The position numbers and the translations under genes were made by a program. 64,000 nucleotides of DNA, from positions 124,001 through 188,000 of the forward strand of contig NZ_JAILWM010000001.1 of NCBI RefSeq assembly GCF_025698945.1. Direction: 5' to 3'. Under the pieces are notes generated by a model, which did no database searches, was not told where the DNA came from, and saw nothing but the letters and a program-made list of their open reading frames with translations. The stretch's first letter is position 1. Every line of letters begins with the position of its first letter. This document shows, one piece after another, positions 26,133 to 33,505 of this stretch. This stretch comes from Nitrosopumilus sp. GTDB taxonomy: Archaea > Thermoproteota > Nitrososphaeria > Nitrososphaerales > Nitrosopumilaceae.

Positions 26133-26708
26133 TTATCTTTGTTTGCTTATTTTTCTTTTTGAACTCTTTTTTCTCTTGACTGTCTTTTTCTTGGTTGCAC
26201 TCTTTCTAGCTGGTTTTCTCTTGACTGTCTTTTTCTTGGTTGCACTCTTTCTAGCTGGTTTTCTCTTGACTGTCTTTTTCTTAATTTGTTTAAGATTTTT
26301 TAATTTGGCAATTTCCTCTTGAATTGACTTAATTTCTTCACGAATGTGATTTTTGGAGTCTATCTTTGAGTACACAAAATTAACAATTTTCTGATAATCT
26401 ACTCCTATCTCTGTTCTGATTAAAAATAACTCATTAGAATTTAATGGGATGCTAACTAATGCTGCTTTTTCAAATTCTGTAATGGCTGATCTTTCTTTTC
26501 CTATTTTATATGCTAAATTAGTATAGAGTTCTCTTTTCTGTATTGCATAATGCATTGACATTTTTGATTCGTCTTTAGTGAGTATTTGCTCAACGTTATT
26601 TTTTGGTCCTCCTGCAACCAATTCTCCCTTGGTATTTACTATTCCTGCAAATTTTACTTGAGGATAAAGATTGAGAACTTGCTTTGATAGTTCACTATAA
26701 TCTATCAA
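26133..26708 (-). CDS. Sensor-like domain protein with a Lys-rich histone-like tail
   Basis: A 191-residue protein. Residues 1-120 match the Amt-coupled protein at 33137 (about 60 percent identical by eye over 115 residues): VKFAGIVNTKGELVAGGPK, MSMHYAIQKRELYTNLAYKIGKERS, NELFLI. Residues 140-191 are a lysine/arginine/alanine tail with a 15-residue repeat KKKTVKRKPARKSAT. The fold of the first part is roadblock-like by pattern. The tail resembles linker-histone C-termini and should bind nucleic acid or acidic partners. I do not know the function. Confidence 0.7.
   Translation of the reverse strand: MIDYSELSKQVLNLYPQVKFAGIVNTKGELVAGGPKNNVEQILTKDESKMSMHYAIQKRELYTNLAYKIGKERSAITEFEKAALVSIPLNSNELFLIRTEIGVDYQKIVNFVYSKIDSKNHIREEIKSIQEEIAKLKNLKQIKKKTVKRKPARKSATKKKTVKRKPARKSATKKKTVKRKKSSKRKISKQR
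26176..26265 (-). repeat. 45-bp perfect tandem repeat coding the basic tail
   Basis: Two identical 45-base units, 26176-26220 and 26221-26265, lie directly in tandem and a truncated third follows. They encode KRKPARKSATKKKTV. The DNA identity implies a recent duplication, and the repeat number may vary between strains. Confidence 0.95.
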
Positions 26709-30009: not shown

Positions 30010-30372
30010 TTATTTTTCTTCATACTGGTTGTCTTTTTGCATGAATAAACTCAACATGACTCTTCCCTTGTCTGTGATTGTGTAAATTACGTTTGCTCCT
30101 ACTGCCTCTTTTTTTATGAAGTTGTAATCTACACATAGATGTAGATAATTCAAAAATGATTTTTTCATTCTGATCTTTGATTTTGAATATAGATCTGAGA
30201 ATGTCATTGGATTTCCTCTGAGTTGATATAGTAATTTCAAGAGTGATAGAGTGCTGTAATCTCTTGTTCTTGCTTTTACTGCATCGAGAATCTGCTCATC
30301 TCTTTTTATGATAAAATCCCCAAATTGGTCTGCCACTTCTAGTGGCACATATGTTAGTCTTGCTCGCATCAT
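30010..30372 (-). CDS. Winged-helix-like DNA-binding protein
   Basis: A 120-residue protein. The C-terminal 80 residues look like a winged helix: helix LLKLLYQLRGN, turn PMTFSDLYSKSKIRMKKSFLNYL as the recognition part, and a beta-wing ANVIYTITDKGRVML. The first 30 residues are an extension. An unusual perfect palindrome lies over its start codon (30372-30388). A local autoregulator is an inference. The start may be ATG 30372 or 30369. Confidence 0.6.
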   Translation of the reverse strand: MMRARLTYVPLEVADQFGDFIIKRDEQILDAVKARTRDYSTLSLLKLLYQLRGNPMTFSDLYSKSKIRMKKSFLNYLHLCVDYNFIKKEAVGANVIYTITDKGRVMLSLFMQKDNQYEEK

Positions 30373-30554: not shown

Positions 30555-31136
30555 ATGAAAAAAATTGAGGCTGTAATTAAAAGAAAAAATTTTCCATCTA
30601 TTAAGACCCTCTTGAGTACTGTTGGGACTTACATTATTGATAAAAGAAATTTAGATGATAACCAAATTTATGATGAATCAAAAGGTTCTCGCATTGGTTC
30701 TAGTGGACTTCAGTCAATACCCTTAGCAAAAATCGAGATGGTTGTATCAGATAAGGATGCAAGAAAAGTTGTTGAGATGATTTCCAAAAATTCTGGTCTG
30801 TCATCAAATCATGGAGGAAAAATCTTTGTTTCTGAAATGGAAGAAGTTGTGGACATGGATACTCTTGATGGAAATCAAGATCTTGAAATTCTTGAATTAC
30901 CAAAAACTAAATCTCGTTCATTACCTAAACGTAGTAGGTTTGTTCCATTACAAAAATTTACTTTGCATAAACTACAAGTAGTTTATGAGGAAAACAAAGA
31001 AAAACTTAGAGATGATTATAGAATAAAATCATTTAGTGATTTCACAAACTATTGTATCATGAAATCTCTTCCTGCATTAGAAAAACAATTGAAAAACCCT
31101 ACAATGCTTTACGAAAATAATTTTGGTGATTTTTAA
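30555..31136 (+). CDS. PII-like (GlnB/GlnK) protein with a C-terminal extension
   Basis: From the ATG at 30555 the protein is 193 residues and begins MKKIEAVIKRKNFPSIKTLL, matching PII proteins (about 110 residues). The PII core ends with GGKIFVSEMEEVVDMDTL near 100. The T-loop is diverged and short, with no uridylylated tyrosine in the usual RGxxxxY context. The final 90 residues (FTLHKLQVVYEENKEKL, DFTNYCIMKSLPALEKQL) form a helical domain I cannot name. PII proteins sense ATP, ADP and 2-oxoglutarate. A GTG at 30543 is in-frame but less likely. Confidence 0.75.
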   Translation: MKKIEAVIKRKNFPSIKTLLSTVGTYIIDKRNLDDNQIYDESKGSRIGSSGLQSIPLAKIEMVVSDKDARKVVEMISKNSGLSSNHGGKIFVSEMEEVVDMDTLDGNQDLEILELPKTKSRSLPKRSRFVPLQKFTLHKLQVVYEENKEKLRDDYRIKSFSDFTNYCIMKSLPALEKQLKNPTMLYENNFGDF

Positions 31137-31139
31137 CAA

Positions 31140-31232
31140 TTACATTACTGGCAAAAACAAATACAATCCAATTAATGTCATACCTACTACTGCAAGTGAT
31201 AATTTTGCTATGAAAATTTTTGATACTATCAT
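31140..31232 (-). CDS. 30-residue membrane microprotein
   Basis: ATG at 31232, TAA at 31140. The product is one hydrophobic helix flanked by few residues: MIVSKIFIAKLSLAVVGMTL then IGLYLFLPVM. The start overlaps the stop of the preceding microprotein by four bases (ATGA). Translational coupling in a PII operon makes chance unlikely. Its role is unknown; a membrane-anchor or Amt/PII accessory role is a guess. Confidence 0.5.
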   Translation of the reverse strand: MIVSKIFIAKLSLAVVGMTLIGLYLFLPVM

Positions 31233-31366
31233 ACTGCTAGACCCATAAGTAAGGGTACAACTATGATTCCAATTATTGCTGCAACTTTAACATAGTCTCT
31301 AGCATTAAGTGGTTTTATCTCTTCTCTGTGAAACAATTTACTTTTACGTAAAAAATCAATTTTCAT
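31229..31366 (-). CDS. 45-residue single-span membrane microprotein
   Basis: ATG at 31366 directly after the stop of the PII gene (zero gap), TGA at 31229. The product has a basic 25-residue N-terminus (MKIDFLRKSKLFHREEIKPL) and one C-terminal membrane helix (VAAIIGIIVVPLLMGLAV). Its stop overlaps the next start by four bases. The string PII gene, this gene and the 30-residue gene reads as one operon. Confidence 0.55.
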   Translation of the reverse strand: MKIDFLRKSKLFHREEIKPLNARDYVKVAAIIGIIVVPLLMGLAV

Positions 31367-31696
31367 CTAAATTGTCACTTCCCCTTCATCATCTGTAATG
31401 ATGTCTACTGCTCTGAGAATTTGTGATATGAAAATTTTACCTACTCTTGCATTTTTTTTAATAATGCTGACAACTTCGTCTTCTTTGGAATCTGGAATGA
31501 TTACCTCCAACTTGTATTTATCGCTAAATTGGGGAACAAAAATTTCACTTCCTTTTGAGGCATGAATTTCAGGACCTGGATTCTTTCCCCTTCCTCTAAC
31601 TTTGGAGACTGTTAGGCCTCCAACCTTGATCTCTTTGAGACCTTCGCTAATGTTCATGACATCATTATTTCCTAAAATAACTTCTACTTTGAGCAT
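31367..31696 (-). CDS. glnK: PII nitrogen regulatory protein (GlnK type)
   Basis: A 109-residue PII. The core matches: KVEVILGNNDVMNISEGLK at the start, GGLTVSKVRGRGKNPG leading into the T-loop, then LEVIIPD and the B-loop and C-loop text VGKIFISQILRAVDIITDDEGE. The usual modification-site tyrosine of the T-loop is absent. PII trimers bind ATP/ADP and 2-oxoglutarate and block Amt. It is divergent from amt by 115 bases, the classic glnK-amtB neighbourhood in split arrangement. Thaumarchaeal PII proteins usually lack the Tyr. Confidence 0.88.
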   Translation of the reverse strand: MLKVEVILGNNDVMNISEGLKEIKVGGLTVSKVRGRGKNPGPEIHASKGSEIFVPQFSDKYKLEVIIPDSKEDEVVSIIKKNARVGKIFISQILRAVDIITDDEGEVTI

Positions 31697-31811
31697 TTAG
31701 TAATCGATATGATAATTACACAAATATAATTTCTGATTTTGATGTCCAAATGATAATCAATTGAGCATCAATTTTAGACATTGTTATTAATTTTAAGATA
31801 ATTTTTTCATT

Positions 31812-33140
31812 ATGGTTTTGGACTCTGGGGATACAGCATGGATGCTTGTCGCTGGAAGTCTTGTTCTGTTGATGATTCCTGCATTAGGTCTTTTTGAGTC
31901 TGGTTTACTTCGAAAAAAGAACGCTGCTTCAATCTTCATGCAGATTTTCTTTGGTTTGGCATTGTTGAGTGTGATGTGGTTTGTATTTGGATTTAGTTTA
32001 TCATTTGGCCCTTCATCTCAAGGATTAGTTGGAAATATGGATTGGGTATTTTTGAAAGGCGTTCCGTCTGATGCTCCATTAGAACAATATGCTCCAACAA
32101 TTCCAGGGGTACTCTTTGTTAAATTCCAATTAATGTTTGCAGCAATTACTCCTCTATTGCTTACTGGAACTATTGCAGAGAGAATGAAGTTTAGTTCATT
32201 TATCATATTTATTGCTGCATGGTCAATGTTGATCTATTATCCATTAGTTCATTGGGTTTGGGGTGGCGGTTGGTTAGCTCAACTTGGTGTAGTTGATTTT
32301 GCAGGTGGTATAGTGATTCATACTAGTGTTGGAATGGCAGCCTTAGCTGCTGCATTGGTACTTGGAAAGAGAAGACACTATGGCCCTGCTATAATGATTC
32401 CACACAGCATCCCTCTTGCAGTTCTTGGCTCATCATTGTTATGGCTTGGTTGGTTTGGTTTCAATGCAGGCAGTGCATTGTCTGCTTCGGGCGGAGTTGC
32501 TGGAAACACTGTAATTGTAACTCATATGGCATCCTCAGTTTCTGCTTTAATTTGGGCTGGACTTTCTTGGGTTAGAACAGGAAAACCTTCTGTTGTGGCA
32601 ACAATTAATGGTGCGATTGCAGGACTTGCTGGAATTACCCCTGCTTCAGGATTTGTTAGTGCTGAACATGCATTTGTAATTGGAATTGCAATTGGTGTTA
32701 TCTCTTATTCTGGTGTGGTGTTGTTTAAAGAAAAATTAAAAATTGATGATGCCCTTGATGTTAGCTCTGTTCACGGAGTTGCAGGAATAGTTGGTGCACT
32801 AGCAATTGGAATCTTTGCAAGTACTGCAATAAATCCTGGTGGTGTTGATGGATTACTATTTGGAAATCCAGATCAATTATGGATTCAAGCAGTTGGTGTA
32901 GGTGTTGCAGCTGCCATGGGATTTGGTGGAACCTGGGTTATATTACAAGTACTTAAACATCTAATCGGAATTAGAGTTTCACCTGAAGTAGAAGATATTG
33001 GATTGGATATAAGTGAACATGCAGAATCTGCATATTCTGAGGAAGAAGAATTTATGCTTGATATGGATGATTACACTGAAAATTTGAAAGACAAAGATGA
33101 AATATTTAGAAAGAAAAAAACATCTGGGACAAAAAATTGA
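31812..33140 (+). CDS. amt: Ammonium transporter (Amt family)
   Basis: A 442-residue membrane protein with eleven helices. Recognisable: AWMLVAGSLVLLMIPALGLF, GTIAERMKF, LVHWVWGGGWLA, VHTSVG-type segment (VIHTSVGMAAL) and the twin-histidine regions HSIPLAVLG and VHGVAGIVGALAIG. The cytoplasmic tail of about 55 residues is acidic. It takes up ammonium, the energy substrate of these organisms, or serves sensing. The stop overlaps a TTG start of the next gene by four bases (TTGA), so the two are coupled. Confidence 0.95.
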   Translation: MVLDSGDTAWMLVAGSLVLLMIPALGLFESGLLRKKNAASIFMQIFFGLALLSVMWFVFGFSLSFGPSSQGLVGNMDWVFLKGVPSDAPLEQYAPTIPGVLFVKFQLMFAAITPLLLTGTIAERMKFSSFIIFIAAWSMLIYYPLVHWVWGGGWLAQLGVVDFAGGIVIHTSVGMAALAAALVLGKRRHYGPAIMIPHSIPLAVLGSSLLWLGWFGFNAGSALSASGGVAGNTVIVTHMASSVSALIWAGLSWVRTGKPSVVATINGAIAGLAGITPASGFVSAEHAFVIGIAIGVISYSGVVLFKEKLKIDDALDVSSVHGVAGIVGALAIGIFASTAINPGGVDGLLFGNPDQLWIQAVGVGVAAAMGFGGTWVILQVLKHLIGIRVSPEVEDIGLDISEHAESAYSEEEEFMLDMDDYTENLKDKDEIFRKKKTSGTKN

Positions 33141-33505
33141 CAATCCATTATGACGAGTTAACTAAACATGTTCTGGATTTAGATCCTCATGTGAGGTTTG
33201 CTGGGATAGCAAATATCAAAGGAGAGATAGTAGCAGGAGGTCCCAAAGAAAATGTTGAACAGATGTTGTCTGGAGATCAAGTTAGCATGTCAATACACTA
33301 TGCAATCCAAAAAAGAGAACTTTATACTAATTTAGCATACAAAATAGGAAAAGAAAGATCTTCAATTACTGAATATGAAAAAGTAACAATGATTACCGTT
33401 CCAATAAATTCAAACGAATTATTTCTGATTAGTACTGAACCACGTTCAGATTATTTTAAAATAATTGATTATGTGCACTCAAAATTAGATTTTGAGACAA
33501 ATTGA
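33137..33505 (+). CDS. Sensor-like domain protein coupled to Amt
   Basis: A 122-residue paralogue of the domain at 26133, without the basic tail. The shared text runs through VRFAGIANIKGEIVAGGPK, MSIHYAIQKRELYTNLAYKIG and NELFLI. It starts at TTG 33137 inside the amt stop. The pattern of strands and a central helix suggests a roadblock or GAF/PAS-like small domain, but I do not recognise the family with certainty. Coupling to amt suggests a role in ammonium uptake or sensing. Confidence 0.7.
   Translation: MTIHYDELTKHVLDLDPHVRFAGIANIKGEIVAGGPKENVEQMLSGDQVSMSIHYAIQKRELYTNLAYKIGKERSSITEYEKVTMITVPINSNELFLISTEPRSDYFKIIDYVHSKLDFETN

Follow-up and report, generated by a model that had tools for sequence, protein, structure and literature searches.

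A conserved PII-Amt gene cluster of Nitrosopumilus with an extended PII protein and a palindromic promoter element

The window analysed here, a 64,000-nucleotide stretch of a Nitrosopumilus sp. genome (NCBI RefSeq assembly GCF_025698945.1, contig NZ_JAILWM010000001.1, positions 124,001 to 188,000 of the forward strand), carries an ammonium transporter gene (amt) linked to two genes of the PII family, one for an Amt-linked PII protein and one for an extended protein which we call PIIext, with a palindromic element in the divergent promoter. Two microprotein genes (mp1 and mp2) and a gene of the DUF6659 family complete the cluster, which is real and conserved. Since the synteny is maintained, amt is paired with PIIext in another archaeal family (f2) as well, and the parts are jointly absent from four near-complete genomes, the cluster very probably forms a module dedicated to the control of Amt1, the low-affinity ammonium transporter of ammonia-oxidising archaea (AOA). 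The palindrome is likely to be a regulatory site. As an overall reading we tentatively favour regulation of Amt by PII together with a role for PIIext as a locus-specific transcription regulator.

The cluster and its conservation

The positions and strands of all six genes are those given in an earlier note on this DNA. The amt gene (31812..33140, + strand), which encodes a protein of 442 amino acids (aa), matches the Ammonium_transp profile with 387 bits and TIGR00836 with 423 bits, and is divergent from the gene for the Amt-linked PII (31367..31696, - strand; P-II, 56.7 bits). Directly downstream of the latter is mp1 (31229..31366, - strand), which specifies 45 aa with one C-terminal transmembrane (TM) helix and overlaps by four bases mp2 (31140..31232, - strand), the gene for a 30-aa single-TM microprotein; the gene calls thereby confirm the divergent PII operon with two tiny membrane proteins which the note had placed beside amt. 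PIIext (30555..31136, + strand; P-II, 42.2 bits) follows beyond mp2. On the other side of amt the DUF6659 gene (33137..33505, + strand; PF20364, 37.6 bits) begins with a TTG codon that overlaps the amt stop codon as TTGA, which is the coupling of the amt 3' end to a small domain protein that had been noted before. The P-II, Ammonium_transp and DUF6659 scores refer to Pfam profiles, the curated cut-offs of which (25 bits for P-II and 27 bits for DUF6659) are exceeded in every case. In what follows G000 is the genome under study (1.75 Mb), f1 and f2 denote archaeal families, g-numbers genera and L-numbers loci; L073, L074 and L075 were drawn from a wider contig scan, which otherwise yielded mostly bacterial PII.

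The order PIIext, mp2, mp1, PII and amt, with the three middle genes on the strand opposite to that of PIIext and amt, is kept in 15 genomes of the same genus, in L073 (Nitrosopumilus sp. PfA) and in G018 and G075, and in L073 it includes the flanking PurM, PAC2 and winged-helix-like (wHTH) genes. Genus g22 retains the gene order with mp1 inverted in place, on the other strand (MVKIKPLEPKDYLKLIAIAGIIVGPILFGLYIQQNP), and in g4 and g14 PIIext runs straight into PII with 6-15 bp between them and no microproteins. The genes for PII and amt are divergent neighbours in f1, and in f2 amt is divergent from a PIIext-PII operon. The latter arrangement recurs in L075 (HRbin04), which is probably a member of the Nitrosocaldaceae since its PIIext shows 80-92% identity. 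The Amt proteins of f1 and f2 are only about 45-47% identical, and because amt lies beside PIIext in f2 too, the association of amt with PIIext spans two families. The neighbours, on whose conservation the earlier note had made its reading depend beforehand, are thus conserved across own-genus and related genomes. The deep core of the cluster consists of amt, PII, PIIext and the palindrome; mp1, mp2 and DUF6659 are clade-restricted.

Four genomes of the same genus, each 98-99% complete (G104, G124, G129 and G143), encode an Amt2-like transporter only, and an orthologue of the locus PII, PIIext and credible matches to mp1 or mp2 are all lacking from them; G143 yielded weak PII matches only (best E 2e-8). 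The module is missing from these genomes as a whole.

Two Amt genes are present in G000. The copy at the locus is devoid of an N-terminal signal sequence, and the other, on C4, specifies a 520-residue protein of the signal-peptide type. Since PMC4836417 describes the signal-peptide type as the high-affinity Amt2, we infer that the amt of the locus is Amt1, the low-affinity type. In group 1.1a AOA, according to the same paper, PII homologues are encoded close to low-affinity Amt genes, and the proximity of PII to Amt1 is therefore known and not new. Deep-ocean AOA have been reported without low-affinity amt genes (PMC7490402). As the four near-complete genomes of the same genus are without this amt type, the module is tied to a dispensable type of transporter.

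The palindrome and the two PII proteins

The 115-bp intergenic region between PII and amt contains three conserved blocks, namely a promoter block on the PII side, the palindrome, and a block on the amt side. The palindrome, which the earlier note had missed, is a candidate operator of 17 bp (31747..31763), which reads CAAATGATAATCAATTG and has one mismatch relative to the consensus CAAATGATWATCATTTG; the start codons of PII and amt are each approximately 50 bp away, so that it occupies the middle of the divergent promoter. The core, TGATWATCA, occurs in nearly all of the f1 loci examined outside genus g9, and across these the palindrome stands 48-64 bp upstream of amt and is usually improbable as judged by dinucleotide shuffling. 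The consensus was derived from the same promoter regions, so that three independent tests weigh more.

A search of the whole G000 genome revealed a single site within two mismatches, at the PII/amt promoter, and seven relatives carry the perfect 17-mer once per genome, again at the PII/amt locus. Of the other two-mismatch sites inspected, most fall within coding sequence or have unrelated genes as neighbours, and none was found beside a recognised nitrogen gene. Where PIIext has been relocated (G114 and G019), the best site genome-wide is upstream of PIIext. The element is also present upstream of amt in 5/5 loci of f2, with 2-3 mismatches and a shuffle P of 0.01 or less, and in L075 and L192 it is located just before the TATA-like box of an operon specifying a 69-aa protein, PIIext and PII. 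At the amt-PII promoters of g9 the palindrome was absent in 16/16 cases tested, and there is no PIIext in the seven g9 genomes listed in the search with its C-terminal domain. An RNA element was considered and rejected, there being no Rfam match and a one-base centre that leaves no loop.

PIIext had been described as an extended PII. It is indeed a second protein matching the P-II profile, and the extension, which had gone unnoticed as such, is a novel C-terminal domain. The PII domain occupies approximately residues 1-110, and the basic domain of about 70 aa extends from approximately residue 125 to 193 with a pI of 9.3; across the PIIext set its pI is 9.0-10.1 versus 5.2 for the PII part. 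No credible match to this domain was found among Pfam, NCBIfam and PDB sequences. Its profile has matches in 46 of the 398 phylum genomes, in families f1 and f2, and nearly all of these are in frames that are of PIIext size, about 170-240 residues (one match in G041 is in a stop-broken frame); the same profile search revealed no stand-alone copy among the 398 genomes. Viral contigs contained no relatives of this domain or of DUF6659. The C-terminal 70 or so residues are the better conserved part in distant relatives: the HRbin04 protein shows 32% identity overall, yet retains RLVPLQKYTL...YRIKSFSDFVNFC. The AlphaFold2 model, from a four-row alignment and with a mean predicted local distance difference test (pLDDT) score of 65, comprises a PII fold and three C-terminal helices, and matches GlnK structures in Foldseek with an E value of about 3e-7. 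The B-loop is altered relative to that of canonical GlnB and GlnK (SGLSSNHGGKIF).

In G046 (L046) the part of PIIext that encodes the C-terminal domain is interrupted by a single in-frame TGA, which may reflect a sequencing error or mark the gene as a pseudogene, and G041 (g4) possesses a second, diverged PIIext paralogue (L203:4403-5020, - strand; 36% identity). The PIIext genes of g17 (L196-L202) are convergent with a different PII gene, often overlapping it, and the two lie between a zinc alcohol dehydrogenase gene and PhoU-like plus phosphate-transporter-like genes. Genes resembling those for a class III cyclase, a response regulator and a sensor histidine kinase are situated between PIIext and PII at L074:5050-9288.

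The P-II profile exceeds its cut-off at five loci in G000. Compared with E. coli GlnK, the Amt-linked PII has a 5-residue deletion in the B-loop (ARVGKIF versus the canonical TGxxGDGKIF), which is common to its orthologues, no C-loop arginines and no equivalent of Y51, the uridylylation position. The protein does not, therefore, conform to canonical GlnB or GlnK in any of these three features, and because the B-loop is truncated and the C-loop arginines and Y51 are missing, canonical sensing of ATP and 2-oxoglutarate appears doubtful. Within the genus, conservation is strong in the T-loop segment RGRGKxPGPEIHASKGSEIF. A different PII fusion exists in g9, the sampled genomes of which are without PIIext: a 425-aa protein with an N-terminal PII domain (P-II E 5e-5) and a class III adenylate/guanylate cyclase domain (PF00211 E 2.4e-9) is encoded at L204:1486-2763 (- strand) and L205:2530-3807 (+ strand), with a matching frame in 16 g9 genomes.

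The microproteins and the DUF6659 protein

Neither mp1 nor mp2 has a match in Pfam or NCBIfam. Orthologues of each are present in 18 genomes, with a pooled pN/pS of 0.34 and median dN/dS values of 0.21 (mp1) and 0.22 (mp2), the differences being mostly at codon position 3. On this pattern of substitution both are judged to be under purifying selection and to be more than chance open reading frames, and the inversion of mp1 in place in g22 supports it as a real gene. Every genome with an mp2 profile match of E below 1e-10 also has the PII-amt locus. Proteins of 33-40 aa related to mp1 occur in g4 and g14 at a ribosomal-protein locus. The possibility that mp1 is Sec61beta was rejected, as the true Sec61beta gene is separate (G000:C1:178584-178703). 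The conserved 69-aa protein which heads the PIIext-PII operon in L075 and L192 is of membrane type and is, by eye, unlike mp1 or mp2. Directly downstream of mp1 in L050 (4029-4295, - strand), and similarly in L059 and L062, is a gene for a basic protein of about 90 aa with repeated RGT motifs and no Pfam match; in L062 it lies between mp1 and mp2.

The protein coupled to Amt had been called sensor-like, a description that did not stand: it belongs to DUF6659, which is represented by 11 genes in G000, is adjacent to amt in part of the clade, and is predicted to be Roadblock/LC7-like. The low-confidence model (mean pLDDT 59, from a three-row alignment) gave top Foldseek matches that were all Roadblock/LC7 or MglB proteins, the best with an E value of 5.6e-4. 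Roadblock proteins are common scaffolds for small GTPases. A second DUF6659 gene in the window (26346-26699, - strand), 6.5 kb away, specifies a protein 65% identical to the Amt-coupled copy. The family follows amt in the same genus, and does not do so in g4, g18, g22 and most of g14.

Proposed control of Amt1 and related systems

The genes, their conservation, their joint absence and the palindrome are observed, and every molecular interaction in the following scheme is one that we infer. Trimeric PII would dock on trimeric Amt via the conserved T-loop and gate it in the manner of GlnK on AmtB; given the truncated B-loop, this gating would proceed without canonical binding of nucleotide or 2-oxoglutarate. 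In PIIext the PII domain would serve as the sensor of nitrogen or energy state and the basic C-terminal domain would bind the palindrome, so that a single PII-family protein would directly control amt and PII at the level of transcription, and also itself in genomes in which the palindrome precedes its gene. The two microproteins might be membrane neighbours of Amt that assist or adjust the docking of PII, and the Roadblock-like DUF6659 protein might be an Amt-associated scaffold; these roles for mp1, mp2 and DUF6659 are doubtful at best. Since the palindrome and PIIext are both missing from the sampled g9 genomes, and the C-terminal domain is basic and helical, PIIext is a plausible binder of the palindrome, if short of a probable one, as suggested by co-distribution, the uniqueness of the site in the genome, and charge. 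That PIIext is itself a transcription factor, in which a PII sensor is fused to a new DNA-binding domain acting on a locus-specific palindrome and is joined to a membrane complex of Amt, PII, the two microproteins and the Roadblock-like scaffold, is a bolder proposal, which we regard as possible and put forward with considerable reserve.

A number of observations weigh against such a role for PIIext and its partners. The C-terminal domain belongs to no recognised DNA-binding family; a ribbon-helix-helix, suggested by eye, was not supported by profiles, with no Pfam match beyond noise and an hhalign probability of 0.4% in what was a weak test with a small five-row profile. L074 (AM_0615) has PIIext and no palindrome before amt, and in g17 PIIext is elsewhere with no palindrome nearby, the amt promoter of that genus keeping versions with 2-5 mismatches. 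The absence from g9 may represent one evolutionary event, which would leave the co-distribution with few independent points, and a trimeric PII on a two-fold palindrome would need a special arrangement. Most of the accessory parts are clade-restricted, DUF6659 being missing beside amt in several genera, and the mp1-like genes of g4 and g14 lie away from nitrogen genes.

These points leave room for ordinary GlnK-AmtB control, in which PIIext would be a PII paralogue with a protein-binding C-terminal domain and the palindrome would be bound by an unlinked regulator, for example of the Lrp/AsnC type. We take this to be a serious contender, though not a probable one. The linkage of PII and Amt is classical, and is reported for group 1.1a AOA in PMC4836417; the C-terminal domain is without a DNA-binding family match; and in g17 the PIIext gene faces another PII gene in convergent orientation, which would suit a partnership with PII better than one with the operator. 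Against this explanation, a broad regulator would hardly be expected to have a site that is virtually unique in each genome, and relocated PIIext genes have the site upstream of them. It is improbable that the neighbours reflect conserved synteny only, with no shared function beyond PII-Amt: the compactness of AOA genomes, the occurrence of mp1-like genes and DUF6659 copies elsewhere, and the clade restriction of DUF6659 and the microproteins would fit this explanation, but the amt-PIIext linkage spans two families with Amt proteins about 45-47% identical, the parts are jointly missing from four near-complete genomes, and they share a promoter element. Regulation of the cluster by the wHTH gene (30010-30372), which adjoins PIIext in G000 as well as in several other genomes of the genus and has a weak winged-helix resemblance, is very unlikely, as this gene is located elsewhere in many genomes with a perfect palindrome, and as the operator binder it was rejected, being present in g9 without the palindrome and absent in f2 with it.

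Known systems can be compared with the reading that we favour, namely that PII regulates Amt and PIIext regulates transcription at the locus. The GlnK-AmtB system of bacteria and euryarchaea is similar in that a PII-family gene adjoins an Amt gene, and the T-loop of the locus PII is conserved. It differs in that glnK and amtB form an operon whereas the genes are divergent here, the locus adds extra genes and a dedicated palindrome, and its PII has a B-loop shorter by five residues with neither Y51 nor the C-loop arginines. The PII genes described near low-affinity Amt genes of group 1.1a AOA in PMC4836417 most likely represent the same locus; in the accessible text there is no reference to the palindrome, to either microprotein, to the coupling of DUF6659 or to the C-terminal domain that the second PII carries. 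The proposal in the earlier note of a PII-Amt locus with added conserved parts beyond glnK-amtB is supported, the PII-Amt pairing itself having already been published. In Methanosarcina mazei a protein of 61 aa, sP36, which is cytoplasmic until an ammonium upshift, acts with GlnK1 on AmtB1 (PMC10714827). The likeness, a small protein which acts with a PII protein on an archaeal Amt, is a loose one, as by description sP36 is larger and soluble, whereas mp1 (45 aa) and mp2 (30 aa) have a hydrophobic TM-like segment each.

In the cyanobacterial PII-PipX-NtcA system PII signalling likewise reaches transcription, but a separate DNA-binding partner is needed, whereas here the proposed DNA-contacting domain would be fused to PII. 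PII also acts on transcription through a partner in the GlnK-AmtR and GlnK-TnrA systems. NikR and the Lrp/AsnC regulators combine a ferredoxin-like sensor domain with a small DNA-binding domain and recognise palindromic sites; in PIIext the sensor would be PII instead, and the C-terminal domain matches neither family. We know of no PII-family protein that is itself a transcription factor, and PIIext, if the proposal is true, would be the first. The literature searched describes no nitrogen-responsive transcription regulator or operator for ammonia-oxidising archaea, nor does it describe a PII fusion with this new C-terminal domain and a locus-specific palindrome, or mp1, mp2 and the DUF6659 coupling at the locus. 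A candidate regulator is now at hand, together with defined microprotein partners and a precisely delimited 17-bp site that has hardly any rival copies elsewhere in the genome; two purified proteins and one oligonucleotide would suffice to address the question directly in vitro. If true, PIIext would represent a one-protein nitrogen-sensing switch for ammonium uptake in ammonia-oxidising archaea, and the repertoire of PII would be widened from partner-mediated action to direct contact with DNA.

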